From Chloroflexota bacterium (lineage in GTDB: Bacteria > Chloroflexota > JAJPGV01), in NCBI GenBank assembly GCA_021325635.1, contig JAJPGV010000027.1:1-64000 (forward strand): a stretch of 64,000 nucleotides of DNA, given 5' to 3'. Of the stretch, positions 22,346 through 38,221 are shown piece after piece (position 1 is the first letter of the stretch; every line of letters starts with the position of its first letter). The notes beneath the pieces are model-generated. The model had not been told where the DNA came from, made no database searches, and saw only the letters and a program-made list of their open reading frames with translations. Position numbers and translations under genes: made by a program.

Positions 22346-23377
22346 CTAGGGGAGGATATCCAGCGCCGAGCGATACGCCGCGGCGGTCTGCTCGGCGCTG
22401 CGCTCCCAGGTGAAGCGCGCGGCCTGAGCCGGGCCCTTTCGTCTGAGCGGCTCGGGATCGTCCAACGCCCGCAGCATGGCATCGGCCATGGCGCGCTCGT
22501 CGTGGGGATCGAACAGCAGTCCGGCGTCCTCGACGATCTCCGGCAGCGAGGACGCGTTAGACGAAGCCACCGGGCAGCCGCAGGCCATGGCCTCGAGCGG
22601 GCCAAGGCCAAAACCCTCGTATAACGACGGGGCGACGAACAGCTCGGCATGGCGCAGGAGCTCGACCTTGCGCGCCTCATCCATCGCGCCGAGGAAGCGC
22701 ACCCGGTTACCCAGCGCCCCGGCCAGCGATCGCACGTCGGGGAACAGGGGGCCTGGCTCGGGCACCTGCCCGCCGATGGCCAGCAGCAGATCGGGTCGGC
22801 GCGCAGCCACCAGGGAGAAGGCGCGCAGCAGCGCGGGCACGTTCTTGCGCTGGTCCATGCCACCGATGTAGAAGACGTAGGGCCGGTCCAGCGGCGGCGG
22901 TCCGGAGCGATCCGGCGTGTAGCGGGGATCGACTCCCAGGTACACCACGTGCACCCGTTCCGGCGCGACGTGCAGCCGATCGAGCACGTCGCGCCGGCTG
23001 CACTCGGAGTCGACCAGGATGGCCTCGGCGGAGCGGCAGGCCAGCGCCTGCAGCCAGGTGTAGGCTCGCACCAGCAGCGAGCCTCGATAGGCCGGCAGAA
23101 TCACAGGTATGAGGTCGTGGATCGTCACCACCGCCGGGCGGTCACGCTTGAGGGGCAGGGCGAAGTAGGGCCCGTGCAGCAGGTCAGCGCCAGAGGCGCG
23201 CGCCTGCCGAGGCCAGCCGGACTGCTCCCAGCGCACCTTGCCCACGTTGCCGAGCAGGCCAGGAGGCCGGTGCACCGCTACCTCGACGCCGCGCAGGTGC
23301 TGCAGCAGATGGGTGACGTACTGCCCGCTGCCGGTGTGCTCGTTGGCCAGGAAATAGCCGTTGAGCGAGACTCTCAC
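22346..23377 (-). CDS. Family 4 glycosyltransferase
   Basis: A 343-residue GT-B enzyme. The N-terminal acceptor half contains NEHTGSGQYVTHLLQHL and VVTIHDLIPV. The nucleotide-sugar half contains YVFYIGGMDQRKNVPALLRAF and the conserved E-x7-E segment APSLYEGFGLGPLEAMACGCPV. It should act at the cytoplasmic membrane face, adding one sugar to a growing lipid-linked unit. The GTG start at 23377 overlaps the TGA of the upstream glycosyltransferase (GTGA). Sugar and linkage are not predictable. Confidence 0.93.
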   Translation of the reverse strand: MRVSLNGYFLANEHTGSGQYVTHLLQHLRGVEVAVHRPPGLLGNVGKVRWEQSGWPRQARASGADLLHGPYFALPLKRDRPAVVTIHDLIPVILPAYRGSLLVRAYTWLQALACRSAEAILVDSECSRRDVLDRLHVAPERVHVVYLGVDPRYTPDRSGPPPLDRPYVFYIGGMDQRKNVPALLRAFSLVAARRPDLLLAIGGQVPEPGPLFPDVRSLAGALGNRVRFLGAMDEARKVELLRHAELFVAPSLYEGFGLGPLEAMACGCPVASSNASSLPEIVEDAGLLFDPHDERAMADAMLRALDDPEPLRRKGPAQAARFTWERSAEQTAAAYRSALDILP

Positions 23378-24483
23378 CGCCGGCCCAGCTCCTCGTAGAT
23401 GCCCTTCAGCTGCAGCGCCGACGATCGCCAGGAAAAGCGCTTGGCCTGCTCCAACCCCGCCGCCGACAGCTCTGCGCGCATGGCGGGCTCGGCAGCGAGG
23501 CGACGCACAGCGCCGGCGATAGCCGTGGTGTCCTCCGGGTCGAAGGTCAGCGCCGCGCTGCCGGTGACTTCAGGCAGACTGGAGACGTTCGACACGGCTA
23601 CGGGCGTGCCGCACGACATCGCTTCGAGGGCGGGCAAGCCGAAGCCCTCGTAGAGCGAAGGACAGACGAAAAGCTCGGCCAGGTTGTACAGCGCGGCCAG
23701 CTGCTCGTCGGACACATAGCCGGGGGCGACGACACGAGGAGCCGACAGCTTCTCCAGCACACCCTCGTACAGCCAGCCGCGGGCACCCACAATCACCAGG
23801 TGGTGGGGCAGATCGAGCGACTCGAAGGCATCGATCAAGCGCGCGATGTTCTTGCGCGGCTGCAGCGTCCCGGCAGTGAGGATGAACGGCCGCGGGATCT
23901 CGAGGCCGGCCAGCAGGCGCTCCGCTTCCCCGGCGGCCAGCGGACGGAAGCGCTCACTCGCAGCCGAGTAGACCACTTCCAGCTTGGCGGCCGGAACCCG
24001 GTACAGGCGGACGAGATCGTCTGCCGTTGCGCGTGAGTCCGCCAGCACGCGATCCGCGGCATGGACCGACCTCGGGACGGCGCGGCGCAGGTAGCGGCGC
24101 AGGCTGGGCACCGCGCACTCGGGCCGGATCTCGAACGTGAGATCGTGCACCGTGAGCACGGTGCGGGCGGATCGCACCGGAGCGAGCACGAAGTCAGGCG
24201 CATGGAAGACGTCCACACCGCCGGCCAGCAGATCGGCCCACAGCGGCAGCCGCAGACGCTGCCAGAGGACGGTCTGCCAGCGCTCAGGCAGCGGCAGCCG
24301 GGTCAGGTAGAGATTGGGCTGGGCGGGAACGGAGCTGAGGTCGGAGGCCGGCGAGCGTGCAAAGAGCAGGCTGTAGTAGTTGACGTCATCGAGCTCGAAG
24401 AGCGCCGTGAACAGCTCGCGGGTCAGCCGTCCGATGCCGGCCTGCTGGTTAAGGCCGGCTGTGTAATCGACGCCAATGCGCAA
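23374..24483 (-). CDS. Family 4 glycosyltransferase
   Basis: A roughly 369-residue GT-B enzyme, a paralogue of the one downstream. It opens LRIGVDYTAGLNQQAGIGR, has TVLTVHDLTFEIRPE in the acceptor half, then FILTAGTLQPRKNIARLIDAF and VCPSLYEGFGLPALEAMSCGTPVA in the donor half. The open frame extends far upstream, but that part is out-of-frame reading of the flippase gene. I chose TTG 24483 as the first plausible start after the flippase stop. Coupled to the next gene by a four-base overlap. Confidence 0.9.
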   Translation of the reverse strand: MRIGVDYTAGLNQQAGIGRLTRELFTALFELDDVNYYSLLFARSPASDLSSVPAQPNLYLTRLPLPERWQTVLWQRLRLPLWADLLAGGVDVFHAPDFVLAPVRSARTVLTVHDLTFEIRPECAVPSLRRYLRRAVPRSVHAADRVLADSRATADDLVRLYRVPAAKLEVVYSAASERFRPLAAGEAERLLAGLEIPRPFILTAGTLQPRKNIARLIDAFESLDLPHHLVIVGARGWLYEGVLEKLSAPRVVAPGYVSDEQLAALYNLAELFVCPSLYEGFGLPALEAMSCGTPVAVSNVSSLPEVTGSAALTFDPEDTTAIAGAVRRLAAEPAMRAELSAAGLEQAKRFSWRSSALQLKGIYEELGRR

Positions 24484-24554
24484 GGGTGAGCCGCTCGCTC
24501 GACCTGAGGATGACGCCGAGCTGGAGGAAGGTTCCTGGCCCTCGCCCGCGGCTG

Positions 24555-25589
24555 CTATCGCGCTCGCTTGCTGGTGAAGTACACCACGGCGCCGCTGACG
24601 ACAAGCGCCCAGTAGCTGACCAGCCGATCCATGATCACGATGGCCAGCGCCAGGCCCGCAGGCATGCCGACGAAGATCAGGATGCCGGTGAGACCGCCCT
24701 CCACCGCGCCAAGGCCGCCCGGAGTGGGGACCAAGGTGAGGATGGACGAGGTCACCATGGCAAAGATAGCGGTCAGGAAGCTGAACTGAGCGAGCTGCGG
24801 GCTGCCGCCGGCCAGGGCATGGGCCACGGCAAACAGGCGGGCCGCTTCGCACAACCAGGCCACGAAGGTGAAGGAGAGCACGATCTCGAGCGACTTGAAC
24901 GACCCCAGGGCGCCTTCCTCGAACTTGCGATAGATGCTCAGCACCCGCTCAGAGGCGAAGCGCGCGAAGACCGCCTCCCCAAAATGGCGCATGAACAGCA
25001 GCACCGCGGACATGAGCACGGCCAGCACGATGCCGATAGTCAGGATGAGGCGCACCTCATCGGGCAGCTTGTTGCCGAAGACGATGAGCCCGGTGATACC
25101 GAACGTGAAAAAAATGATCAGCGTGTCGATGATGCGCTCGGCGAAGATCGTGCCGACCGACTTGGACATGGAGACCTTCTCGTTCTTCTTGAGCAGATAG
25201 CCGCGGAAGACGTCGCCGATCTTGGCCGGGACCAGGCAGTTCACAAACCACGAGAGGAACAGGATCTCGGTCACTTCCAGCCGTGGATGGTTCTCTCCCA
25301 CGTTTCGCAGCAGCTGATGCCAGCGCAATCCCCGAGCCGGGAATGTCAGCGCGTAGGCAACGAACGCCAGCAGGTACACCGGCACGTTGACGCCGGCCAT
25401 GTACTTGAGCGCTGAAGAGAAGTCCCCCAGCTTGCTGAACACGGCCACCAGCAGCAGCACCGCCACCACGAAGGACAGGATCGTCTTGGAGTTGAATACC
25501 CTGCGCTTGAGCGAGACACTCTCGCCTTCGAGCTGACTCTCCGCGGGCTCGATCTTCAGGTCAGCAGCTCGCGACAGACTGTCGGCCAT
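24555..25589 (-). CDS. Lysylphosphatidylglycerol synthase TM-region/flippase-like protein (UPF0104)
   Basis: A 344-residue polytopic protein with about eight membrane helices. It resembles the flippase half of MprF: LVPAKIGDVFRGYLLKKNE near residue 110 and VPTPGGLGAVEGGLTGILIF near the C-terminus are the conserved sequences. In polysaccharide clusters such proteins are thought to move lipids or lipid-linked intermediates. No lysyl transferase domain is present. ATG 25589 overlaps the upstream stop as TGATG. Confidence 0.9.
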   Translation of the reverse strand: MADSLSRAADLKIEPAESQLEGESVSLKRRVFNSKTILSFVVAVLLLVAVFSKLGDFSSALKYMAGVNVPVYLLAFVAYALTFPARGLRWHQLLRNVGENHPRLEVTEILFLSWFVNCLVPAKIGDVFRGYLLKKNEKVSMSKSVGTIFAERIIDTLIIFFTFGITGLIVFGNKLPDEVRLILTIGIVLAVLMSAVLLFMRHFGEAVFARFASERVLSIYRKFEEGALGSFKSLEIVLSFTFVAWLCEAARLFAVAHALAGGSPQLAQFSFLTAIFAMVTSSILTLVPTPGGLGAVEGGLTGILIFVGMPAGLALAIVIMDRLVSYWALVVSGAVVYFTSKRAR

Positions 25590-27040
25590 CAGGCGGCCAT
25601 CAGCGACGGCACGATGGTGGTCGAAGGCTGTTGAGCGCTCCCCAGGCGTGCTACCGCGCCCGCGACTCCCAGCAGCAGGCCGAGCAGGACCGGCATCCCG
25701 TGTACGAACATGTTGTCCACCAGATTATGAATGGATAGGGCAGTCAGGCTGCCCAGCAGACCCAGCGCCACTCCGTACCATAGCCCTCGTGGCGCCCGGG
25801 CAACCGCCCTCCCCACCTCGCGGAAGGCAGCGACGACGAGCAGCAAATACGCGGCCAGGCCGACTAAGCCGGTCTCCGCGGCGGCGTTCAGATAGTAGTC
25901 GTGGGCATGGCCCAGCACGGTCTCCCAGCCTTGAGCCGCGTACTGGGGATAGGACGAGATGTAGTTGCCGATACCGACGCCCAGGACCGGATTGTTCTGG
26001 AACATGTTCAGGCCCGCCTGCCAGAATGCCAGACGCTGGACAGCAGAGAAGTTCTCGGAGGTGACGCTGTCCAGGCTGACTCCCGACAGGCCGAAGGCGG
26101 CCAGCACGCGGCCGCTGACGCCGAACGGGATGACGCCGAACACGGCGGCCAGGATCACCATGCTGCCCGCCAGCAAGCTCAGCCAGATCCACACGGCAAC
26201 GCGCTGGCTGGCGACAATGCCCATGACCAGCAGCGCCACGGCGAAGCCCAGCCAAGCGCCCCTGGAAAGGGTCGTTACCATGACCACCGCCACTGCCGCG
26301 GCCGCCAGCGCGACCCATACCCGCAGCCAGCGGCCGGGGGCGAACAGCGCAATGCCCACGAGGATGGGCAGGGTGAGGTTGAGGTAGCCGGCAAAGGGAT
26401 TGGGCTGGCCGAAGGTGCCGTAGGCCCGCAGGATCAGACCGCCTATGAGAAACTGCGGCGGCCCCAGTCGCAGCACTACCTGCGCGGCACCGATCGCCGT
26501 CTCGGCCAGCGCGCCCACGGTCAGGACCGCCAGCAGCGCCCCCACGCGCCGGCCACTGTTCAGCAACCCAACCGCCAGCCAGTACACAGCTGTGAATTCG
26601 AGCCATTTGGCCAGCTCCTTGGCGCTCTGCAGCTGGTCGTCGGCCTTGAAGAAGGACAGCAGCATGGCCGCCATGAGGACGATCATGGGCCTCAGCAGAG
26701 GAGCGCTGTGCCAGCCACCGCGCTCGATAGCCAGCTTCCGGGCGAAAAAGGCCACCAACGTCAGGGCAACCACGCCCTCGGTGATGGTGATGTTTACCTC
26801 GGTCGGGTCCGTGCCCCGCAGGCTCTGGAAGGGGACGGTCAAGGCCAGCAGATAGACGCCCACTTCGGGCTTGACCGTGACGAGGGTGACCGCGCCCACG
26901 GCGGCGATCGCCAGCGCGCTGTAGAGGGGCGGAGCGAGCGCTATGGCAGCGCCCAGCGCTGCCAGCAGGACCGCTGCGCCAGCACCGAGATGCGGCCGCG
27001 CCAACGAACGGCGGCCGATACCCAGTGCGCTGACGCTCAA
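25589..27040 (-). CDS. O-antigen ligase/polymerase (Wzy_C) family protein
   Basis: A 483-residue membrane protein with about 12 hydrophobic helices. The long extracytoplasmic loop carries the family motif NPVLGVGIGNYISSYPQYAA followed by GHAHDYYLNAAAETG, with the functionally important His. A cytoplasmic-side arginine-rich loop and TLSRGAWLGF are also typical. Such proteins polymerise or ligate undecaprenyl-linked glycans outside the membrane. The start is TTG 27040, overlapping the epimerase stop as TTGA. A second Wzy-type domain lies in the fusion protein two genes upstream. Confidence 0.92.
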   Translation of the reverse strand: MSVSALGIGRRSLARPHLGAGAAVLLAALGAAIALAPPLYSALAIAAVGAVTLVTVKPEVGVYLLALTVPFQSLRGTDPTEVNITITEGVVALTLVAFFARKLAIERGGWHSAPLLRPMIVLMAAMLLSFFKADDQLQSAKELAKWLEFTAVYWLAVGLLNSGRRVGALLAVLTVGALAETAIGAAQVVLRLGPPQFLIGGLILRAYGTFGQPNPFAGYLNLTLPILVGIALFAPGRWLRVWVALAAAAVAVVMVTTLSRGAWLGFAVALLVMGIVASQRVAVWIWLSLLAGSMVILAAVFGVIPFGVSGRVLAAFGLSGVSLDSVTSENFSAVQRLAFWQAGLNMFQNNPVLGVGIGNYISSYPQYAAQGWETVLGHAHDYYLNAAAETGLVGLAAYLLLVVAAFREVGRAVARAPRGLWYGVALGLLGSLTALSIHNLVDNMFVHGMPVLLGLLLGVAGAVARLGSAQQPSTTIVPSLMAA

Positions 27041-27978
27041 ACCTTCAGCTCCGTCCTGAACCAGGCAATGGTGCTCTTGAGTCCCTCCTCCAACGGCACA
27101 CGCGGCGTCCAGCCGAGTTGCGTGCGGGCACGGGTGATGTCCGGCCGCCGACGGGTGGGATCGTCTTCGCGCGGCGGAAAGAACTCGATCTTGGACTTGG
27201 AGCCCGTCAGCTCGAGGACCATCTCGGCCAGCTCCAGCAGGGTGAACTCCCCTGGGTTGCCGAGGTTGAACACCTGGCCGACGGTGTCCTCCTCGAACTG
27301 CGCTTTCAGGATGCCCTGGACCAGGTCATCGACGTAGCAGAAGCTGCGGGTCTGGGTGCCATCACCGTAGATCGGCAGCGCCTCGCCCAGCAGCGCCCTG
27401 CAGATGAAGTTCGGAACCACACGCCCGTCGTCGGCTTGGCTGCGAGGTCCGTACGTGTTGAAGATACGGATCAGGCGCGCGTCCAGGCCGTGAAGACGGT
27501 GAAAGTCCATCGTGATCGACTCGGCGTAGCGCTTCCCTTCGTCATAGCAGCTGCGGATACCGTGGGGGTTGACGTTGCCCCAATAGGTCTCCGGCTGGGG
27601 ATGCACCTCCGGCTCCCCGTACACCTCCGACGTCGAAGCCTGCAGGAAGCGCGCGGAATGGCGGGTGGCCAGGCAAAGCAGGTGGTAGGTGCCCTCGGCG
27701 TTCACGCGAGCCGTCTCGATCGGGTGCGCCAGATAGCCGACGGGGCTGGCGGGGCTGGCCAGGTTGAACACGGCGTCGACCGGCCAGTCTGCCGGCAGAC
27801 CTTCGATGATGTCGTGCTGCACGAAGGTGAATCCGGGACGTGAAGCGAACGACTCGATGTTGCGGCGCCGGCCAGTCAGCAGGTTGTCGACGCAGATGAC
27901 CTGATGTCCAGCGCCGAGCAGGGTTTCGCAAAGGTGGGAACCGATGAAACCGGCGCCACCTGACACCAGGATATTCAG
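27037..27978 (-). CDS. UDP-glucuronate decarboxylase-like NAD-dependent epimerase/dehydratase
   Basis: About 313 residues of the extended SDR family. The NAD site is VSGGAGFIGSHL, and the catalytic triad includes Ser/Thr in ASTSEVYGEP and YxxxK in YDEGKRYAE. The segments ETYWGNVNPHGIRSCYDEGKR and NTYGPRSQADDGRVVPNF closely resemble UDP-xylose synthases. The likely product is UDP-xylose or a similar pentose donor for the adjacent transferases. I extend the start to CTG 27978, giving NILVSGGAGF. AGGAG lies eight bases upstream, and the codon overlaps the preceding stop as CTGA. GTG 27966 would cut off the first beta strand. Confidence 0.88.
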   Translation of the reverse strand: MNILVSGGAGFIGSHLCETLLGAGHQVICVDNLLTGRRRNIESFASRPGFTFVQHDIIEGLPADWPVDAVFNLASPASPVGYLAHPIETARVNAEGTYHLLCLATRHSARFLQASTSEVYGEPEVHPQPETYWGNVNPHGIRSCYDEGKRYAESITMDFHRLHGLDARLIRIFNTYGPRSQADDGRVVPNFICRALLGEALPIYGDGTQTRSFCYVDDLVQGILKAQFEEDTVGQVFNLGNPGEFTLLELAEMVLELTGSKSKIEFFPPREDDPTRRRPDITRARTQLGWTPRVPLEEGLKSTIAWFRTELKV

Positions 27979-30900
27979 GGAACAGACTCCTCTCGGTGGG
28001 GGCTATCCCATTCTATCGTCTGCAGCAGGCCCACGGTCAGCCAGAAGACGAGCGCCAGGTCGACCAGGAAATAGGAATTGTCGACCAGCCCATGGACCAG
28101 CGTATCGACCATGCAGGCCACGAGACCGACGGCGGCGGCACGGGGGAAGCCGGCCGCCACCTTCAACACGCGTGCCGCCAGCCTGAAGAAGCAGACCTGC
28201 AGCCAGACCATGGCCGCGATGCCAAAGACGCCAATTCGGGTCCAGAAGTCGAGCGCCAGATCGTGAGGATGAGACAGATCGGGCTCGTTGCGTGCGAGCG
28301 GCAGGATGTAGCGCGGATACTGGTACAGGAAGTTGTCCAGGCCAACGCCAAAGATGGGGTGGTCGCGAATCATGGCCACCGAGGATCGCCACAACTCCAG
28401 CCGCGAGAAGCCGGTCGAGCCGGGGGTGAACTGCACGATCGACTGGATACGCCGGGCCTGCACCGAGCCCAGCGCCGCGCCTGCCAGCAGGCCGCCGCCG
28501 AGCATCAGCCCGAGCCAACGCCGGCCAGCAAAGGCGCCCACCACCAGCAGGGCCGCGAAGTCACCCAGCCAGGCTCCGCGGGTGAAGGACAGCACCACGC
28601 CTACGAGGGCCAGCAGGCCCATGGCGGCATAGGCTGCGCGCCAGCGCCGCGGCTCGGGCGCAAGCAGCGCCAGCGCAGCAGCGAGCGGCACGATCCGGCC
28701 CAGGTACAGGGCGAAATTATCCGGCGACCGGTACACGCCGACCATGCGCAGCACACCTTCGGCCTGGATGCCCTGGTGCCGAGCGTACTGCACCACACCG
28801 GCCAGGGCCACGACGGTGCCCCCAAGCAGCAGCGCCCGAAGCATGGGCCGCAGCGGAGGACGGACGGTCAGAAGCAGCCAGAAGAACAGCAGCGGCTCGA
28901 GCACGTCCGTCCGCCATTCACGCAGCGCGTAGCGCGGATAGTCGGCGGCGAACACGGAAGCCGTGGCCGCCGCAAAGAGCAGCAGCGCCGGCCACATGAG
29001 CTCGCTTCGCGGCCAGGCCCACTCGCCGCGCCAGGCGCTGCGCAGCAGCCAGGCGGCGATGCAGAGCCAGATGACGGCCTCGGACAGCGGCACATCCAGG
29101 GCGCCGATGTGGCGCGGCTGGAGGTAGAAGGGCGCCACCAACGGCACGAACACGAGGGCCAGGTCTGGCCGCCACAGGGCAGCGCCGGCAAACAACAGCG
29201 CGCCGAACAGCGCAACAGGCAGTGGACGGCCGGCATAGAACAGTCCCAGGCTGACGCCCAGCGCCGCCAGGGGCACGAGCAGGCCGCCGGGAAGAGCCGC
29301 CAACCGGCCGTTCAGCGCAGCGAGACGCTGGCTGGCGCCGCCCGAATAGCGCGCCAATCGCCGCGCGGTCATCGCCAGCGTCTTCCAGCCAAGCAGGACG
29401 AGCCCCAGCCCCAGTAAGATGCCACCGGCGTAGGCAGTCCGCTGATCCTTCGTCAGGCCCACCCCGAAGCCTTCGATCTGCACCGCCGGGCCGGACGAAA
29501 GCGGGCTCTGCCGGCCGCTCACGGTCAGCGTGAGCTGGTGCCGGCCGAAGGGCAGTCCAGCCGCGACAGCTACGCGACTGGCTGCCGGTGACGGAGCGTA
29601 CAGATCGACCGCGGCTCGCCCGGCGTCGTCTTTGGGCACCTCGGTCGCATACGTGGGGGAGCCGTCGACGGACAGGTAGGCGATGCCGAAATTAGGCCCG
29701 CGCATGACCTCCACGCTCGCCGCGCTGCCGTCGAAAACCAGCGTGGCGGTTGCAGCCGAGACCGGGCTCGCCATGCCTGATGGCGAAGGCGACGGCGCCG
29801 AGACCGTTTGCCACGCTCCGTCGTAGGTCACCGAGCCCTCGATGGCGGAATGGTTACCCGTGGCCGCCGCCGGCGGCAGGTGCATCACGTTCGCCAGCGC
29901 GGTGTAGACCGGCCGAGGCTGGAAGTCCTGTCCTACCAGGCCGAAGAACTGCGTCGGGTCGGCCGGCGCCGGCGCGGGATCCTGGAACAGCCAGACGTTG
30001 GCGACGCCCATCCAGGGCCACTCGCGGCGCATACGCTGGTAGGCCGCCACGGTGTAGCTCGCCTGCCGATCCAGGCTGACGCTCCCCCAGGGCGAGGGGT
30101 CTCCGGACCAGCCGGAGGGGAGCGCGTTCCAGCCAAACTCGCAAACCCACACCGATTTGCCGGCGTCGCCGTTGCGGACCATCACCTCCCGGTCCAGGAC
30201 GACACGGCCAACGTTGGTGTTGTGGCTATCGACAATGGCTTTGCGCGCGGCGTTGGGATGCAGCGGTAAGTCCTGCCATGGATCTTCGGGGCCGGCGCGA
30301 AGGCCATAGGCCTGAGCGCCCAGCACGTCGAAAAAGCCTTTGGCCCCGGCGTCGTACATCTGCTGCAGGTAGACGGGGTCCGGACGGTTCTTGGTGCAGC
30401 AGTCGGTCGTGGGCGTCAGCGCGGCCGACAGCACCACAATGCTGGGATCAGCCTCCTTGGCGCGCCGATAGCCAATCTGCAGCAGCCGGGTGTAGGCCAC
30501 GGGGTCGACCGGTTGGTAGCCCCAATCTTCGAAGCGGTTGGGCTCGTTCCAGATCTGCACGTAGTGGATGCGGCCCCGGAAGTGCTGCACGAAGGCGTAC
30601 ACAAAGTCGCCGTAGTCGTCGTAATCGATCGGCGGCGCGCTGTCCGCGCTGCCCGGGGCCCGCGCCCAGTCCGGCGGCCGTTCGAGCCGGGCAATGACCT
30701 GCAGGCCGGCTGCGTCTGCCGCGTCGACCAACCGGTCGTACTTGTCCCAGGCGCTCTTACCGTTCTTGTGGTCGAAGAAATCGCCCTTGGCCGAGATCTC
30801 GATCTCGTTCCAGCCGAACACCTGTCGGACCCAGCCGAAGCCGGCGCCGCCAATCATGTCGACGCTGCGCCGCAGATCCTCGTCACGCACGATCTTGTCC

Positions 30901-31076
30901 AGCTCGACGTTGACGCCGTATGGATTCGCCGGGAGATTGGAGGCGGCCGCGACGGGGACACCGTAGGCCACGCCGCGGGTCATGGCGTGGTCCAGCAGCA
31001 CTGTCGCCGCGCCGAGCAAGCACAGCAGCGACGCGACAAGCCACGAGCGGGAAGAAGGCGCTAAGGGAAGCCTCAC
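27975..31076 (-). CDS. Fusion of a secreted glycosidase-like domain to an O-antigen ligase/polymerase domain
   Basis: A 1033-residue protein. Residues about 12-30 form an anchor or signal helix. Residues about 50-400 form a clan GH-A TIM-barrel-like domain (GH39/cellulase-like) with the acid/base pair in WNEPN (E178) and the candidate nucleophile in CEFGWN (E313). A beta-rich module (about 415-540, with GPNFGIAYLSVDGS) follows. From about 545 onward it is polytopic, with about 10-12 helices and the Wzy_C motif FGVGLDNFLYQYPRY plus SHPHDLALDF. One protein therefore appears to hold both glycan-building and glycan-cleaving modules on the outer face of the membrane. It overlaps the next gene by four bases and shares its front half with the adjacent lipoprotein. 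Confidence 0.9.
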   Translation of the reverse strand: MRLPLAPSSRSWLVASLLCLLGAATVLLDHAMTRGVAYGVPVAAASNLPANPYGVNVELDKIVRDEDLRRSVDMIGGAGFGWVRQVFGWNEIEISAKGDFFDHKNGKSAWDKYDRLVDAADAAGLQVIARLERPPDWARAPGSADSAPPIDYDDYGDFVYAFVQHFRGRIHYVQIWNEPNRFEDWGYQPVDPVAYTRLLQIGYRRAKEADPSIVVLSAALTPTTDCCTKNRPDPVYLQQMYDAGAKGFFDVLGAQAYGLRAGPEDPWQDLPLHPNAARKAIVDSHNTNVGRVVLDREVMVRNGDAGKSVWVCEFGWNALPSGWSGDPSPWGSVSLDRQASYTVAAYQRMRREWPWMGVANVWLFQDPAPAPADPTQFFGLVGQDFQPRPVYTALANVMHLPPAAATGNHSAIEGSVTYDGAWQTVSAPSPSPSGMASPVSAATATLVFDGSAASVEVMRGPNFGIAYLSVDGSPTYATEVPKDDAGRAAVDLYAPSPAASRVAVAAGLPFGRHQLTLTVSGRQSPLSSGPAVQIEGFGVGLTKDQRTAYAGGILLGLGLVLLGWKTLAMTARRLARYSGGASQRLAALNGRLAALPGGLLVPLAALGVSLGLFYAGRPLPVALFGALLFAGAALWRPDLALVFVPLVAPFYLQPRHIGALDVPLSEAVIWLCIAAWLLRSAWRGEWAWPRSELMWPALLLFAAATASVFAADYPRYALREWRTDVLEPLLFFWLLLTVRPPLRPMLRALLLGGTVVALAGVVQYARHQGIQAEGVLRMVGVYRSPDNFALYLGRIVPLAAALALLAPEPRRWRAAYAAMGLLALVGVVLSFTRGAWLGDFAALLVVGAFAGRRWLGLMLGGGLLAGAALGSVQARRIQSIVQFTPGSTGFSRLELWRSSVAMIRDHPIFGVGLDNFLYQYPRYILPLARNEPDLSHPHDLALDFWTRIGVFGIAAMVWLQVCFFRLAARVLKVAAGFPRAAAVGLVACMVDTLVHGLVDNSYFLVDLALVFWLTVGLLQTIEWDSPHREESVP

Positions 31077-31137: not shown

Positions 31138-32724
31138 TCAGTCCCCTACCGTGAAGCCGTCGACAAAGGCGAAGGCGTCCTGTGAGGCCGGATTCCTCGA
31201 TCCGCTGACGGTCAGCTGCAGCACGTGCTTGGCGTAGCTCAAACCGTCGGCTATCGGCTGGTCCTGCGCGTAGAGACGCTGCGCCGAATAGAGGTCGAGA
31301 AAGGCCTTGCCATCGGTGTTCCGCTTCAGCTTATTCGGCACGGTTGACGACCCATCGATGGAGACGTAGGCGATGCCGGCGTTGGGCCCGGTGATGGTCC
31401 TGAGGCGAATGCTGCTGCCGCGGAAGGTGATGAGCAGCGTAGCGTTAGGCTTGCTGCTGGCCAGCAGAGCGCCGCCGCTGGCCTTGGGATCCAGCTGGAG
31501 CGTCCAGTTACTGCTGATCTTGCCGTCGTCGCTCGGCTGAAGCGCCGGGGACGTCTCCTCGTAGTCCCCGGGGAGGGCAATCTGCAGATCCTTGGTCTCA
31601 TTCTGGATCTCGGCGTACAGCGGGGTAGGTGAGAAGTCGGGGTTGACCATGCGGAAGTAGTACTCCGAGTCCGACGGCGGATTGCGCGTACCGTCCTGGC
31701 GGAAGTACCAGATGTTAATCACCCCCACCCACGGCCAGGAACGCGCCATCTTGATGGCTTCGCGGGTGTAATCGGCCTGCTGCTGCTCGGTGACACGGCC
31801 CCACTTCAGCCTGTCCGTGGGCATATCGGCCGGGGAGGCATTCCAGCCGAACTCGTCGAACCACACCGGCTTGGCGGCGTCGCCGCTGTCCTCCATGATC
31901 TTTCGCTCCAGCAATACGCGCTGGAAGTTCAGCCGGTCGGGATCGGGCGGGTCGGTAGGCGGCTGGGACAGGCCATAGGCATTGGCGGACATGATGTCGA
32001 AGTAGCTCTTGCCCCCCGCGGCGTAGACCCCCTTCAAGAAGTCCAGGTCGGACTCATTCTGGGGCGAATGCTCCAGCGTGATGGCCAGCGGCGCGCTGAG
32101 GATGATGGCGTTCGGATCGGCTTCCTTGGCCCGGGTGTAGCCCGCCTTGAGGAGCTGCACGTAGGCTGCCGGAGCGGGCGCCTTTCCCCAACCCAGGAAG
32201 ATGTTTGGCTCATTCCAGAGCTGGTAGTAGCGGATGCCCTTGCCCTTGAGGTGACTCACCACGGTGTAGACAAAATCGCCGAAGTCAGCCACGTTGTCGG
32301 GTGGCGCTTGCGGTTGGCTGTTGTCCGCACGCGTCCAGTTAGGGGGCGCGTCCAGGCGCACGATAGCCTGCAGGCCAAACTCGTTGATCAGGTCCAGACG
32401 CTTGTCGTACTTCTCCCAGGAGGGCTTGTTGAACTTTGTATCGACGTACTCGCCCTTGCGCTCCGGCTCGATCTCGAACCAGGGAACCTCCTGCTTGACC
32501 CAGCCGATGCCGGCATCCTTGATCATCTGCAGCTCGCGGCGCATCTTCCACTCCTCGACCTCACGATCGAGGAAGACGTTGACGCCGTACGGATTCACGT
32601 CGGTGAAGGGCACTGTGCGCAGCGGGAGCGGATTTGGGCGCTCACCGCAGGACACCAGGACCAGGCACAGCAAGACCGATCCCAGGACCTTGTGGATGGC
32701 GCGGCGCGGCGAATTCAACGCCAC
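31138..32724 (-). CDS. Secreted glycosidase-like lipoprotein, paralogue of the fusion protein's front half
   Basis: A 528-residue protein. The signal sequence ends in a lipobox LVSC (C26). A GH-A-like barrel follows with WNEPN (E172) and DEFGWN (E291). The C-terminal beta module contains GPNAGIAYVSIDGSS, almost the same phrase as in the fusion protein. Both catalytic Glu positions are kept, so hydrolase or transglycosidase activity is plausible. GTG 32724 is one start option; TTG 32718, overlapping the upstream stop as TTGA, is another and gives a cleaner signal peptide. The substrate is likely the polysaccharide made by this operon. Confidence 0.88.
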   Translation of the reverse strand: MALNSPRRAIHKVLGSVLLCLVLVSCGERPNPLPLRTVPFTDVNPYGVNVFLDREVEEWKMRRELQMIKDAGIGWVKQEVPWFEIEPERKGEYVDTKFNKPSWEKYDKRLDLINEFGLQAIVRLDAPPNWTRADNSQPQAPPDNVADFGDFVYTVVSHLKGKGIRYYQLWNEPNIFLGWGKAPAPAAYVQLLKAGYTRAKEADPNAIILSAPLAITLEHSPQNESDLDFLKGVYAAGGKSYFDIMSANAYGLSQPPTDPPDPDRLNFQRVLLERKIMEDSGDAAKPVWFDEFGWNASPADMPTDRLKWGRVTEQQQADYTREAIKMARSWPWVGVINIWYFRQDGTRNPPSDSEYYFRMVNPDFSPTPLYAEIQNETKDLQIALPGDYEETSPALQPSDDGKISSNWTLQLDPKASGGALLASSKPNATLLITFRGSSIRLRTITGPNAGIAYVSIDGSSTVPNKLKRNTDGKAFLDLYSAQRLYAQDQPIADGLSYAKHVLQLTVSGSRNPASQDAFAFVDGFTVGD

Positions 32725-34730
32725 GTCAACTGGAAGCTGGAGTAGGCTGCCGCAAGGGGGCGGCGGTCCAAGCTTTGGCCGTCGGTGGCCTCGTACGCAG
32801 AGGTCGCCATGGTGTGCTCCAGGGTAACGGTGTTGAGTCCCTCGGCATGGAACAACGTTGCCGGCAGAGACATGTTATACGGCGCCCAGTCGGTCACCAT
32901 CGAAAGCGTAGCCGCTGCCTGCCCGTTGACGGCAACGGTCAGCTGCTGCCCTCTGGGATAGGCCACGCCGACCAGCTGCAGGGTGGCGTCGGAAGGACGG
33001 TCCACCCAGAACCGTATCCGGGCCTGCAGGCCCGTCCATCGCGCCGGAAGGTCGGAGATTTCCTCGGGCCGGTACCAGCCGTCCTGCAGGTAGCGCACGT
33101 CCTCGGGCGTCCCGATGCGGACCGCGCTCGATGGCAGAACGAGATCCTGCGCCCGAACGCCAGGCAGCGGATGATAGACGGCCAGCCACACGCTGGCGGC
33201 CTTCGGCAGCACCAGCGGATCGCGCTGGAAGACGCGGGTGTCCGCGCCAACGAAGCTATCGGGCGCGTCGAAGCCCTCCTTGTCCAGCACCACCAGATTG
33301 CTGTACGCAGTGGAGGCAAGATCCCGATCTAAGGCCGCCCGGTCGAGCTCGTCGATGAGGTAGGTCCTGAAGCTCGGCGCCCGGTAGCGGACGGCGTTGT
33401 AGGAAGAGCCGGCGACCACCAGTGTGCTCTCAGGCGGAAAGGTCTGCTCGATGTAGGCGGCGGCCTGCTCCGGCGGGGCCGGGATCGTATCCAGGGCATG
33501 GACCAGCGGCCACGCGGCCCAGCCGAAGTACGCCGCCAGGCCCACACAGGAGACGGCGGCGAAGCGGCGCACCAACCGCCCGGCCGAAGCGCTCCAGCCG
33601 GCCCCGGCGCCCGCGAGCAGCAGCAGCATGGGCGGCACGACCGGCAGCACCTTGCGGGGATCGTCGGGCCGCAGGAGCAGCAGCATGAAGACCGCGTATG
33701 GCGCCAGCCAGGCAACGGCCAGCTGACGGACGGCAGGGCCATTGAGAGCCACCAGCACGACCAGCGCGCAAGCGAGGGCGGCGAACGCCGGCAGCCCCGC
33801 CTGCCGTGGACCTCCGAAGTATGCGCTGAAGACCGACCCGAACTCGGCAAGCCGGGTCCCCACGTTGCTGGCGGTCAGCGGACGGGCGAACAGGCTATCG
33901 GTGCTGCCTACGTAGCTGGACTGGCCGGCCAGCGAGGCCCAGGCCGTGGCGGCGTCGGGGAAGCTGCGCAGCAGAGGCAGTGCCCAGGCTGCACAGACGA
34001 GGACGAAGGCCGCGGCTCCGGCGCACAGCAGCAGGACTGCCCTGCGGCCGACCCGAAGCAGGCCGGGCAGCACCAGGAACAGCAGCGCCGACAGCGGGAC
34101 CAACGCATCCTGGGGTCGCACTCCAGCAGCGACCCCGGCGGCAGCGCAGCCCGACACCAGATACCAGAACGACGAACGGGGGCGTGCGTGCTGTCGCTCC
34201 GAGCTCGCCCCAACCGTGGCCCCACCGGCCGAGCGCCATGCGCGGTTCAGGAGGAAGACGGACAACACGGCGAAGGTGAGGCCAGGCACGTCGGACAGGG
34301 CCATCTCGCTGCTCAGCCAGAAGAGCGGCATCGTCGCCAGCGGCAGAGCGGCCCAACGAGCGCCCGAGTCGACGCCCAGCCCGCCCACCAGCAGGACGGC
34401 CAAGGCGCCGCATAGCGCGCTCAGAATGGTGAGCGCCGCCTGATGGTCGGGCACGGCCAGGCTTACCAGCCGGGCGAGAGCGATGTAGGCCGGGTAGCCC
34501 GGTGGCTGAGGCTGATTGTGCAAGGGATCGAAGTGGTCGATGGCTCGCGCGAAGTTGAACGAGTCGAAATCGTCCAGGGACACCGAGCGCGTCAGCCCGT
34601 ATGCAACAGCGGTCGCGGCGGACAGCGCCAGCACGGCCAGCCACAGCCATCTATTCGCCTCCCGAGGCCGCTGCGGCCGCCGTTTCGGCGCTTCTGCCGC
34701 CTCGAGTCCCACCACCGATAGCGGGCTCAC
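32715..34730 (-). CDS. GT39/ArnT-like membrane glycosyltransferase with C-terminal beta module
   Basis: About 671 residues with about 10-12 N-terminal membrane helices. The first extracytoplasmic loop holds the acidic motif SLDDFDSFNFARAIDHFDP, typical of polyprenyl-phosphate-sugar-dependent transferases. A soluble region from about 440 contains YLIDELDRAALDRD, and a lectin-like stretch closes the protein (LQARIRFWVDRPSDATLQLVG onward). I chose GTG 34730, which overlaps the comF stop as GTGA, because the longer frame reads through comF. It overlaps the lipoprotein gene downstream. Confidence 0.85.
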   Translation of the reverse strand: MSPLSVVGLEAAEAPKRRPQRPREANRWLWLAVLALSAATAVAYGLTRSVSLDDFDSFNFARAIDHFDPLHNQPQPPGYPAYIALARLVSLAVPDHQAALTILSALCGALAVLLVGGLGVDSGARWAALPLATMPLFWLSSEMALSDVPGLTFAVLSVFLLNRAWRSAGGATVGASSERQHARPRSSFWYLVSGCAAAGVAAGVRPQDALVPLSALLFLVLPGLLRVGRRAVLLLCAGAAAFVLVCAAWALPLLRSFPDAATAWASLAGQSSYVGSTDSLFARPLTASNVGTRLAEFGSVFSAYFGGPRQAGLPAFAALACALVVLVALNGPAVRQLAVAWLAPYAVFMLLLLRPDDPRKVLPVVPPMLLLLAGAGAGWSASAGRLVRRFAAVSCVGLAAYFGWAAWPLVHALDTIPAPPEQAAAYIEQTFPPESTLVVAGSSYNAVRYRAPSFRTYLIDELDRAALDRDLASTAYSNLVVLDKEGFDAPDSFVGADTRVFQRDPLVLPKAASVWLAVYHPLPGVRAQDLVLPSSAVRIGTPEDVRYLQDGWYRPEEISDLPARWTGLQARIRFWVDRPSDATLQLVGVAYPRGQQLTVAVNGQAAATLSMVTDWAPYNMSLPATLFHAEGLNTVTLEHTMATSAYEATDGQSLDRRPLAAAYSSFQLTWR

Positions 34731-35386
34731 GTACGCCCCTGGTCCTGTCGCGCCACGACCAGACCCCAGACCTGCGCCGCACCGGCGCGGAGCAGCGGCG
34801 TCGCGCAGGCGAAGAGCGTGCTGCCGGTGGTGCACACGTCATCGATCAGCAGCACCGTCTGGCCCGCAACCAGACCAGGGTCTGCGCAGACGAAGGCGCC
34901 TTTGACGTTGGTTTGCCGCTCGGCGCGGCTCCGGCCTACCTGCTCGCCGGTCTCACGCACGCGAGCAGCGGCGTCGACAACCGGCAAACCCAACCGGCGA
35001 CCAAGGTGATCCGCCAGAAGGCGAGCCTGGTTGTAGCCGCGCTGCCGCTCGCGTTTGGGGTGCAGCGGCAGCGGCGCGAGCACAGTGGCCGGCGGCAGCT
35101 GCCCCACCACCGGCTCCAGAAAGCCGGCCAGTGGCTGGGCCATAGCGCGGTGACCGTTGTACTTCAGCCGGTGGATGGCCAGGCGAACGGCGCCGTCGTA
35201 GCGAGCCGCGGCCCGAATGCCGTGGATGCCCGGGCGATCCCTGGCGCAGTCCTGGCAGCGAGGGCCGTGGCCCACTTCGCGCCCACAGCACTCGCACAGC
35301 GGAGGCGTCATGAGGTGAACCTCTCCCCGGCATTCGGCGCAGATCCAATCTCCCAGCCGGCGGCACTGCACGCAGCGCCGCGGCAA
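34727..35386 (-). CDS. comF: ComF-family phosphoribosyltransferase-like protein
   Basis: A 219-residue protein. The N-terminal zinc-finger-like part has CVQCRR, CAEC, CECCGRE and CQDC. The PRTase domain follows with APLPLHPKRERQRGYNQA and the PRPP-binding loop VLLIDDVCTTGSTL. ComF proteins are linked to DNA uptake and replication restart. The frame as given begins at TTG 35386. Upstream codons in the same frame encode HASLRSALDLLLPRRC, which resembles normal ComF N-termini, so the true start may be a CTG near 35425. It is the first gene of the polysaccharide operon by position. Confidence 0.9.
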   Translation of the reverse strand: MPRRCVQCRRLGDWICAECRGEVHLMTPPLCECCGREVGHGPRCQDCARDRPGIHGIRAAARYDGAVRLAIHRLKYNGHRAMAQPLAGFLEPVVGQLPPATVLAPLPLHPKRERQRGYNQARLLADHLGRRLGLPVVDAAARVRETGEQVGRSRAERQTNVKGAFVCADPGLVAGQTVLLIDDVCTTGSTLFACATPLLRAGAAQVWGLVVARQDQGRT

Positions 35387-36547: not shown

Positions 36548-37936
36548 CTAGAAGAGCGAGTTGATGAACAGTCCCTGGGCAAACAGCTGCGCATACAACA
36601 GGGCGCTGAGCGTGTGACTGGCCAGCAGCTGCTGCGGGGTCACCAGGCCCGACGACAGCGAGACCGCAGGCACGAACTCCGGGGCGCCCAGCCGTGAGGT
36701 CGGCCCGGAGACGATGTCGGCGGCGAACCGGCCGATGGTCGGAGCCAAGCCGTTGGGCGAGCCGATCACCTGCTCCGCATAGCCCGGCCGATCGTCGAAC
36801 ACGCCGGCGAACTCGGCCCGGTCCAGCACCGGGTCGCCGTTGGCGTCGAGACTGATCCCGACCTCGCTCATGGCCGGTTGCAGACGCTCGAGCAGGGCGC
36901 TGCAGTCGCTGGCAAAGGCCTTGGACAGATACCGAGCGTTGTCGCGAATGATCTGGCGCAGCAGCCGCAGCGCTTCGATGAGGTGCGCCACGGCGCCGGC
37001 GACCGCGAGCTGATCGGGGCCGACGTTCACGGTCAGCTCGACTCCAGGCGCGGCCCGATGCAGCGCCAGCTGCACCTTGCCTCGACCGAGCACGATCACG
37101 TTGGTGGGCGAGATGGTCCGCACGCCATTGAGACGGTAGATCACGTCATGTGCCGGACGCACGACGTGGCCGGCGCCGCTGACCCTGACCAAGGAGCCCT
37201 TGTAGTCGGTGAGCGAGAAGGCGCTGCCGGCGCCGGTTTCGTTGCCGGTCAGGGCAATCTGCACCGTACCGGTGGTGGGTCGAACGAGCATAGCCAGCAC
37301 GCCGAGGTTGGCATGGTTGACGGCCGCCGCGAACTTGTTGAGAGCCAGATCGTGGCTGTCGCCGTCTTCGATATCCACGGTGATAGTCCGACCGCCGATG
37401 CGAGTGCGCAGCTCGACCTTGTAGTCGCCGGCAGGGAGAGCGATCGGAGCGTCCGCGGGGAGGAGCTGGCCGAGATTCTCCTGTGCGGCGGCCACACCCT
37501 CGACGACGATCTTGTAGCGGCCGCTGCCGGATCCGGCCGTGGCGATACCCGTCACCACGGCCGGGTCCGAGCTGACCACCCCAACCTGTTGGAAGGCGTT
37601 GAAGGCATTGTTGGGCGAGAGGGCACTGGCCGCGGCAGCGACCGATCCGGCCGCCAGCGCGAGGTTGGACAGAGCCTGGCCGACCTGCTGCTGGTACTGC
37701 TCTTGCAGCAGCAGCGGCGGCGGTCCGCTCAGCGCTTGCGCAACGAGCTGCGCTGCACTGGGCAGCCGAGCGCCAAAAGGCAGCTCATGGCCAGCCCGAT
37801 CCTCGGTGCTTTTGGTCAGCGCCTCCACCAGCGTTTTGTCGCTGATGACCGGCAGCCGCGGCAGCTGCCGGTTCGACGCCGGCTCCAGCTCGTCGCTGTC
37901 CAGTGGAGCGCGACGCGGGACGGGCAACCTATCCAT
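36548..37936 (-). CDS. FliD-like (flagellar hook-associated protein 2-like) protein, isolated
   Basis: A 462-residue protein resembling the filament cap family. The middle contains SSDPAVVTGIATAGSGSGRYKI and VVEGVAAAQENLGQ, similar to the FliD N-terminal domain. YRLNGVRTISPTNVIVLGRGKVQLAL resembles the second FliD segment (NG...S.SN.v....gv.l.L). C-terminal coiled regions are present, but the usual terminal helix is not clear. There is no secretion signal, as expected for a type III substrate, yet no flagellar gene is in the window. I set the start at ATG 37936 because the longer frame upstream is Arg/Pro-rich and not convincing. Confidence 0.65.
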   Translation of the reverse strand: MDRLPVPRRAPLDSDELEPASNRQLPRLPVISDKTLVEALTKSTEDRAGHELPFGARLPSAAQLVAQALSGPPPLLLQEQYQQQVGQALSNLALAAGSVAAAASALSPNNAFNAFQQVGVVSSDPAVVTGIATAGSGSGRYKIVVEGVAAAQENLGQLLPADAPIALPAGDYKVELRTRIGGRTITVDIEDGDSHDLALNKFAAAVNHANLGVLAMLVRPTTGTVQIALTGNETGAGSAFSLTDYKGSLVRVSGAGHVVRPAHDVIYRLNGVRTISPTNVIVLGRGKVQLALHRAAPGVELTVNVGPDQLAVAGAVAHLIEALRLLRQIIRDNARYLSKAFASDCSALLERLQPAMSEVGISLDANGDPVLDRAEFAGVFDDRPGYAEQVIGSPNGLAPTIGRFAADIVSGPTSRLGAPEFVPAVSLSSGLVTPQQLLASHTLSALLYAQLFAQGLFINSLF

Positions 37937-38156
37937 GTGACATGTGTGCCTAGACCATACCCTTATCCGAGTATCGTCCGCGGACGGGCGAGGCCGCACC
38001 TGGCAGGGCAACGGACACGTCCTCCGCCTCAAATATGGTGTTGGTTTCAGGTCTCGCAGTGCAGGGCGAGGCCGGCGCGAGGCCGCGCTGCACTGTCTCA
38101 CAGTGCAAGGCTCTGCGCACCTGACGATGCTCCCCCACGTCCAAGAACTGCTCGGT

Positions 38157-38165
38157 TGGTATAAT
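38157..38165 (+). promoter_or_regulatory. Extended -10 promoter element for the peroxiredoxin gene
   Basis: TGG directly before TATAAT (38160-38165) makes an extended -10 element. No good -35 lies 17 bases upstream, which is acceptable for extended -10 promoters. It would start transcription about 50 bases before the ATG at 38222. An inverted repeat around 38056-38106 (GCAGTGCAG with CTGCACTGT) lies upstream. Confidence 0.55.
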
Positions 38166-38221
38166 TGATATGATCGCCTCACCAGCTCCATCGACAGAAT
38201 GCGTTAGTAAGGAGAAAGAGC

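Follow-up and report, generated by a model that had tools for sequence, protein, structure and literature searches.

A PslG-like glycosidase domain joined to a Wzy/WaaL-type membrane domain in one protein of Chloroflexota

Why do bacteria make a cutting enzyme at the place where their own polysaccharides are made? A number of exopolysaccharide operons carry the gene of an enzyme that breaks down the very polymer they produce, and there is no agreement on the reason. A covalent form of the same pairing, which may show why, is found in a stretch of 64,000 nucleotides from a Chloroflexota bacterium (assembly GCA_021325635.1, contig JAJPGV010000027.1, positions 1 to 64,000; hereafter the window). 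One of its genes encodes a predicted protein in which a glycoside hydrolase (GH) part precedes a Wzy_C-type membrane domain. A first, sequence-only reading had proposed that a glycosidase and a Wzy domain are combined here in one protein, and this is borne out by a single uninterrupted frame of 1033 amino acids. The GH part is predicted to be a relative of PslG, the fusion is conserved across many Chloroflexota families, and in one clade the domain persists although its predicted nucleophile has been lost.

Architecture of the fusion protein

The open reading frame (ORF) of the fusion contains neither internal stop codons nor ambiguous bases. Neither the GC content nor the GC content at third codon positions breaks at the junction of the GH and Wzy parts, and the only dip comes towards the end of the gene. 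The hydrophobicity profile displays an N-terminal helix (residues 9–33), after which the next membrane segment appears only at residues 549–571, followed by a polytopic domain extending to about residue 1022. The GH part is flanked by these two transmembrane (TM) segments; the number of hydrophobic segments preceding the active loop of the Wzy domain is uncertain, and the structural models are weak.

When the GH domain was searched against the PDB as a single sequence, only weak matches were obtained. A profile of 40 GH domains, both fused and solo (profile A3), ranked PslG of Pseudomonas aeruginosa first (E 1.7e-29, positions 16–349, 334 profile positions), with the GH39 beta-xylosidases far behind (E 1e-13 and weaker). 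In a Foldseek search with the AlphaFold model of residues 34–560, a weak model built on an alignment of three sequences (mean predicted local distance difference test score, pLDDT, 55.8), ranks 1 to 3 went to PslG structures (E 7e-17 to 7e-16), rank 4 to a GH39 enzyme. The model displays the expected barrel followed by a beta-sandwich, the strands of which span model positions 409–488 (residues 442–521 of the protein) and residues 442–520 in the full-length model. In the hidden Markov model alignment, E178 (IWNEPN) and E313 (WVCEFGW), both present at the residues where the sequence-only reading had placed them, correspond to Glu165 and Glu276 of PslG; here the PslG chain positions 139 and 250 were obtained by counting and converted with an offset of 26. 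In PslG, a retaining endo-beta-glucanase encoded in the Psl biosynthesis cluster, Glu165 is the acid/base and Glu276 the nucleophile (PMC11912335).

On the GH side of the fusion protein, Pfam returned a sub-threshold GH5 match alone (residues 70–194) and no match to PF01229 (Glyco_hydro_39) at E 0.01; a PHROGs search gave no match. Due to the missing PF01229 match the domain is labelled PslG-like and GH39-related, and not a member of Pfam GH39, while a generic GH5/cellulase assignment was dropped since PslG was best in both the profile and the fold search. By these two lines of prediction the barrel is a PslG/GH39-type domain, which refines the earlier description of a GH-A-like barrel with both catalytic glutamates.

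The membrane domain matches Pfam Wzy_C (PF04932) over residues 820–956 (E 2.4e-19, 70 bits versus a gathering cut-off of 31.7). Of the domain matches anticipated from the letters alone, the one to Wzy_C was found, and the one to a glycosidase family was limited to the sub-threshold GH5 match. Among solved structures, a profile of 25 fused-type Wzy membrane domains (profile A4) has one relative, WaaL (7tpg, E 6.4e-12). Residues R892, H936, H938, H995 and D999 are invariant in all 31 aligned fusions. Three functional residues have been described for WaaL and PglL (PMC3643930). R892 and the HxH motif of the fusion are the counterparts of R288 and H338 of WaaL, whereas R833, placed at the R215 position, is kept in most aligned fusions and replaced by K, A, E or V in several. 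The length of the domain, the Wzy_C match and the invariant R892, H936 and H938 support its initial description as complete. For the fused Wzy domain, sequence alone cannot separate a polymerase from a ligase; weak matches to PEP_O_lig_1 and TfpM lie far below the curated cut-offs, and in the full-length AlphaFold model (pLDDT 48.8) the Wzy part is unusable.

Distribution of the fusion and loss of the predicted nucleophile

Relatives were sought in 400 genomes of Chloroflexota, in which the class of the window's genome holds no other member. Many full-length single-frame relatives were recovered, mostly with 34–44% identity, and an ORF-level check verified GH and Wzy in one frame in 49 other genomes from 15 families besides that of the window; some of these genomes consist of a single contig, and one locus (L073) ends inside the Wzy part. 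The same fusion is thus found well outside the window, and it is conserved across many families of the phylum. For other phyla, one scan of genome contigs was made, in which the sole relative was a truncated contig of a Chloroflexi metagenome-assembled genome, and a search of plasmids gave GH or Wzy matches only as separate genes.

In the GH tree, fused and solo copies form two separate old groups, each spanning families; L011, the one 'solo' row to fall among the fused copies, is truncated by the end of its contig. Similarly, the fused Wzy and the unfused Wzy encoded downstream form two distinct clades in the Wzy tree. Three unfused Wzy rows (L054, L058 and L060) stand inside the fused-type clade, which points to loss of the GH part, or to a pre-fusion state, in some lineages. 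Among the fusions the GH part is the best conserved, with a mean identity of 44% versus 33% for the Wzy part. A fusion of 1236 amino acids in genome G236 (L039, 583–4293, plus strand) has an additional, incomplete GH copy in tandem, which might be genuine or might stem from a duplication in the assembly.

Of the 31 aligned fusions, 29 retain E178 and 24 retain E313; with 12 more fusions checked, the counts are 41/43 and 34/43. Conservation of the catalytic glutamates in orthologues therefore holds for most members and fails, for the nucleophile, in one clade: within the GH tree every row that has lost E313 belongs to one branch, and the two further losses, L061 and L062, come from congeners of rows placed there. 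In this clade the GH part has a mean identity of 41.9% versus 38.3% for the Wzy part, and the ratio of nonsynonymous to synonymous substitution (dN/dS, NG86) of the GH part is about 0.14 for L050/L061, a pair with dS near saturation, and 0.25 for L049/L062. The GH domain is under purifying selection in the E313-less clade. Since it is kept under selection after E313 has been lost, it has some function independent of the nucleophile, and hydrolysis is not its sole role; most simply, this function would be glycan binding. As a natural experiment, the lineage allows cutting and holding to be told apart. Solo GH genes mostly do not adjoin the fusion in this clade. At two of its loci a G5-domain protein with weak similarity to DPPIV_N is encoded 5' of the fusion (L050, 6322–8097, and L052, 2838–4430, both plus strand).

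Proposed role at the site of glycan synthesis

The envelope was screened in 18 genomes, 17 with the fusion (the window's included) and G018, which has the unfused Wzy neighbour. LpxC and Wza (Poly_export) were found in none of the 18, but both were found in control genomes, whereas Wzz is present in 16 of the 18; in the window's genome it is encoded only on another contig (C56) and not at the locus. The absence of LpxC excludes a role in lipopolysaccharide (LPS), and a reading of the Wzy part as LPS O-antigen ligase was rejected. The absence of both LpxC and Wza agrees with a surface that has no outer-membrane exporter of the Wza type. The fusion also gives a starting point for learning how surface glycans are assembled in Chloroflexota, the genomes screened being without lipid A synthesis.

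The favoured reading, to which a probability of about 0.5 is assigned, is that of a synthase-tethered PslG-type endo-glycosidase that would keep hold of the growing chain and in most lineages also trim or release it. The PslG-type (GH39-related) module would lie on the outer face, tethered to a Wzy/WaaL-type polymerase or ligase in the cytoplasmic membrane, in the setting of a UDP-xylose-using operon for an exopolysaccharide or cell-surface glycan in bacteria without LPS. The module would be placed where the lipid-linked nascent chain emerges and could bind it there. In most lineages, where the glutamate pair is intact, the chain may be cleaved on the membrane, so that its length is set, the product released or stalled chains cleared; in one clade the module would have turned into a catalytically dead glycan-holding domain. 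We infer the topology, in which the GH part and the active loop of the Wzy domain both face outwards, and likewise the substrate, the control of length and the cutting of the polymer that the operon itself makes. The covalent fusion of a PslG-type GH with a Wzy/WaaL-type enzyme across many families provides strong indirect 'Rosetta stone' evidence for joint action at the site of synthesis.

Several observations weigh against this reading. The AlphaFold models (pLDDT 56 and 49) are weak and do not place the two active sites relative to each other, and the counts of hydrophobic segments do not settle the topology. The glycosidase activity of the fusion is a prediction, and its substrate is deduced from a single sugar-nucleotide gene. 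An active-looking solo GH adjoins the fusion in many genomes and could do all the cutting. Moreover, in nine of 43 fusions the residue at the E313 position is H, N, Q, S or A, so cleavage is not obligatory; trimming, one of the functions first suggested for the protein, does not hold as a universal one, as the domain persists in these members. A further-reaching version is put forward tentatively: the tethered glycosidase might act as a chain-length ruler or release factor replacing Wzz at an LPS-free and Wza-free surface, with catalysis and holding separable and a pure clamp left in one lineage.

Rather unlikely, but the strongest of the alternatives, is a GH domain that serves chiefly as a non-hydrolytic clamp or substrate presenter for Wzy, its catalysis being secondary or residual and the cutting left to the solo GH. 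The clade without the nucleophile, in which the barrel is conserved above Wzy and under purifying selection, and the active-looking solo GH beside the fusion in many genomes agree with such a role. However, most fusions retain E313 as well as E178, and a solo GH that mostly lies apart from the fusion, as in the dead clade, is not what a plain division of labour would lead one to expect.

Retaining enzymes of clan GH-A are able to transglycosylate, and tethering to a polymerase would bring donor and acceptor together. The GH domain might therefore move chain blocks to an acceptor, either another chain or a cell-wall anchor, as part of a two-step polymerase/transferase; two Wzy_C proteins are encoded in the operon. 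This scheme is distinctly improbable, as it has no specific support in the sequence and the nucleophile-less clade would be incapable of it. Very unlikely is also a Wzy domain that acts as a ligase or O-oligosaccharyltransferase onto a non-LPS surface carrier, for which the GH domain frees or trims the donor. Wzy_C spans polymerases, ligases and protein O-oligosaccharyltransferases, the second Wzy_C gene could supply the polymerase, and the PEP_O_lig_1 and TfpM matches point in this direction, but these matches are far too weak, LpxC is missing throughout the screen and no carrier was identified. An assembly or frameshift error joining two genes, conceivable in a draft of 63 contigs, is rejected, given an ORF without stop or N and the same single-ORF fusion in 49 more genomes, single-contig ones included.

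Comparison with known systems shows that PslG and the GH part of the fusion share, beyond the profile and fold match and the aligned glutamate pair, a place in polysaccharide biosynthesis operons. PslG is a separate protein, reported to be periplasmic, of a diderm host, whereas the Chloroflexota domain is fused to a polymerase or ligase in genomes that, where screened, have neither Wza nor LpxC, and some members of the fusion family are without the nucleophile. With no Wza-type exporter and no Wzz at the window's locus, the locus also differs from a Psl-type system. The levels of PslG are reportedly critical for Psl biosynthesis, according to the title of one study. The kinship to PslG, which the sequence-only reading had missed, makes the pairing of a GH with polysaccharide synthesis less alien. 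With WaaL, Wzy and PglL the fusion shares the Wzy_C membrane domain and the arginine and HxH counterparts described above. It differs by the additional N-terminal glycosidase part of 545 residues, which is putatively extracytoplasmic, by the absence of an LPS acceptor and by a counterpart of the R215 position that is not kept in all fusions. Other polysaccharide-degrading enzymes encoded with synthesis machinery are the hydrolase of the Pel operon and the alginate lyase AlgL (PMC11912335). Here, as in the fusion operon, a degrading enzyme is encoded beside synthesis genes. Both belong to enzyme families unrelated to the GH of the fusion, and we know of no enzyme of either type fused to a Wzy-type enzyme, nor of any described system with the glycosidase-Wzy architecture. 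No description of such a fusion was found in the open-access literature, which leaves out most subscription papers; in agreement with the initial impression of an undescribed architecture, the components are known and the fusion of a PslG-type GH with a Wzy/WaaL enzyme is new with respect to that literature.

Operon and related gene arrangements

The genes from 34835 to 22346 lie tightly packed on one strand (Table 1), in the order probable GT-C, solo GH, GH-Wzy fusion, UDP-glucuronate decarboxylase, second Wzy_C protein, flippase-like protein and two GT4 glycosyltransferases. The decarboxylase gene suggests that the polymer of the operon contains xylose. The solo GH shares 42% identity with the GH part of the fusion, and the start of its gene is overlapped by 10 bp by that of the probable GT-C protein, which gave no Pfam match at 0.01. 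The longer GT4 frame overlaps its neighbour by 298 bp, its true start probably lying downstream.

Table 1. Coordinates of the fusion gene, its domains and key residues, and the neighbouring genes in the window
Feature	Residues	Coordinates	Strand	Basis
GH-Wzy fusion CDS	1–1033	27975–31076	-	GTG start; single open frame
PslG/GH39-type (beta/alpha)8 barrel (predicted)	45–400	29877–30944	-	profile versus PDB; Foldseek; model DSSP with alternating strands and helices
Beta-sandwich domain (predicted)	401–545	29442–29876	-	predicted strands in both AlphaFold models; low confidence
TM helix joining GH part to membrane domain	549–571	29364–29432	-	hydrophobicity; helix 543–577 in full-length model
Wzy_C/O-antigen ligase-type membrane domain	590–1025	28002–29309	-	Pfam Wzy_C; profile versus WaaL 7tpg
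Predicted acid/base	E178	30543–30545	-	aligned with PslG Glu165
Predicted nucleophile	E313	30138–30140	-	aligned with PslG Glu276
Counterpart of WaaL-family Arg (E. coli R288 position)	R892	28401–28403	-	invariant 31/31; alignment with 7tpg
Counterpart of WaaL-family His (E. coli H338 position), HxH motif	H938	28263–28265	-	invariant 31/31; alignment with 7tpg
Multi-TM protein, probably GT-C glycosyltransferase		32715–34835	-	weak TMEM260-like match, E 0.06
Solo PslG-like GH, 528 amino acids		31138–32724	-	both Glu present; 61 bp upstream of fusion
UDP-glucuronate decarboxylase (UDP-xylose synthesis)		27037–27966	-	4gll UXS1, E 1e-103, full length
Second, unfused Wzy_C protein		25589–27040	-	Pfam Wzy_C, E 2.6e-23; old clade apart from fused Wzy
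Flippase-like/LPG_synthase_TM protein		24555–25589	-	PF03706, E 3.7e-48; TIGR00374
GT4 glycosyltransferase		23374–24852	-	Glycos_transf_1, E 1.3e-29
GT4 glycosyltransferase		22346–23377	-	Glycos_transf_1, E 2.5e-32

The order from solo GH to GT4 is common in full to the window and L045, where an SDR-family gene occupies the place of the decarboxylase. Shorter stretches recur at L042 (solo GH, fusion, second Wzy, flippase-like) and L043 (solo GH, fusion, second Wzy), and at L056 and L052 an SDR-family gene and a second Wzy come after the fusion. At L054 the order of the operon is kept with the Wzy unfused.

PslG-like GH domains are also joined to other partners. A frame of 999 amino acids in G152 (L059, 7039–10038, minus strand) combines such a domain with a GT2 glycosyltransferase, and in G104 and G208 of the same family the GH and GT2 genes lie side by side. 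In G018 the partner is a GT-C PMT_2 domain within a frame of 1129 amino acids (L063, 1113–4499, minus strand); the GH and PMT_2 genes adjoin in G216, and in the window the probable GT-C gene and the solo GH gene overlap. The GH-GT2 and GH-PMT fusions were each found in one genome only and, with the two genes side by side in relatives, were not taken to reflect a wider theme. On contig C25 of the window's own genome, a protein of 562 amino acids (L003, 892–2580, minus strand) carries a GH-like domain and, behind it, a solute-binding domain of family 3 (SBP_bac_3, E 5e-18). The window also encodes a protein of 547 amino acids with weak similarity to FliD (36548–38191, minus strand).

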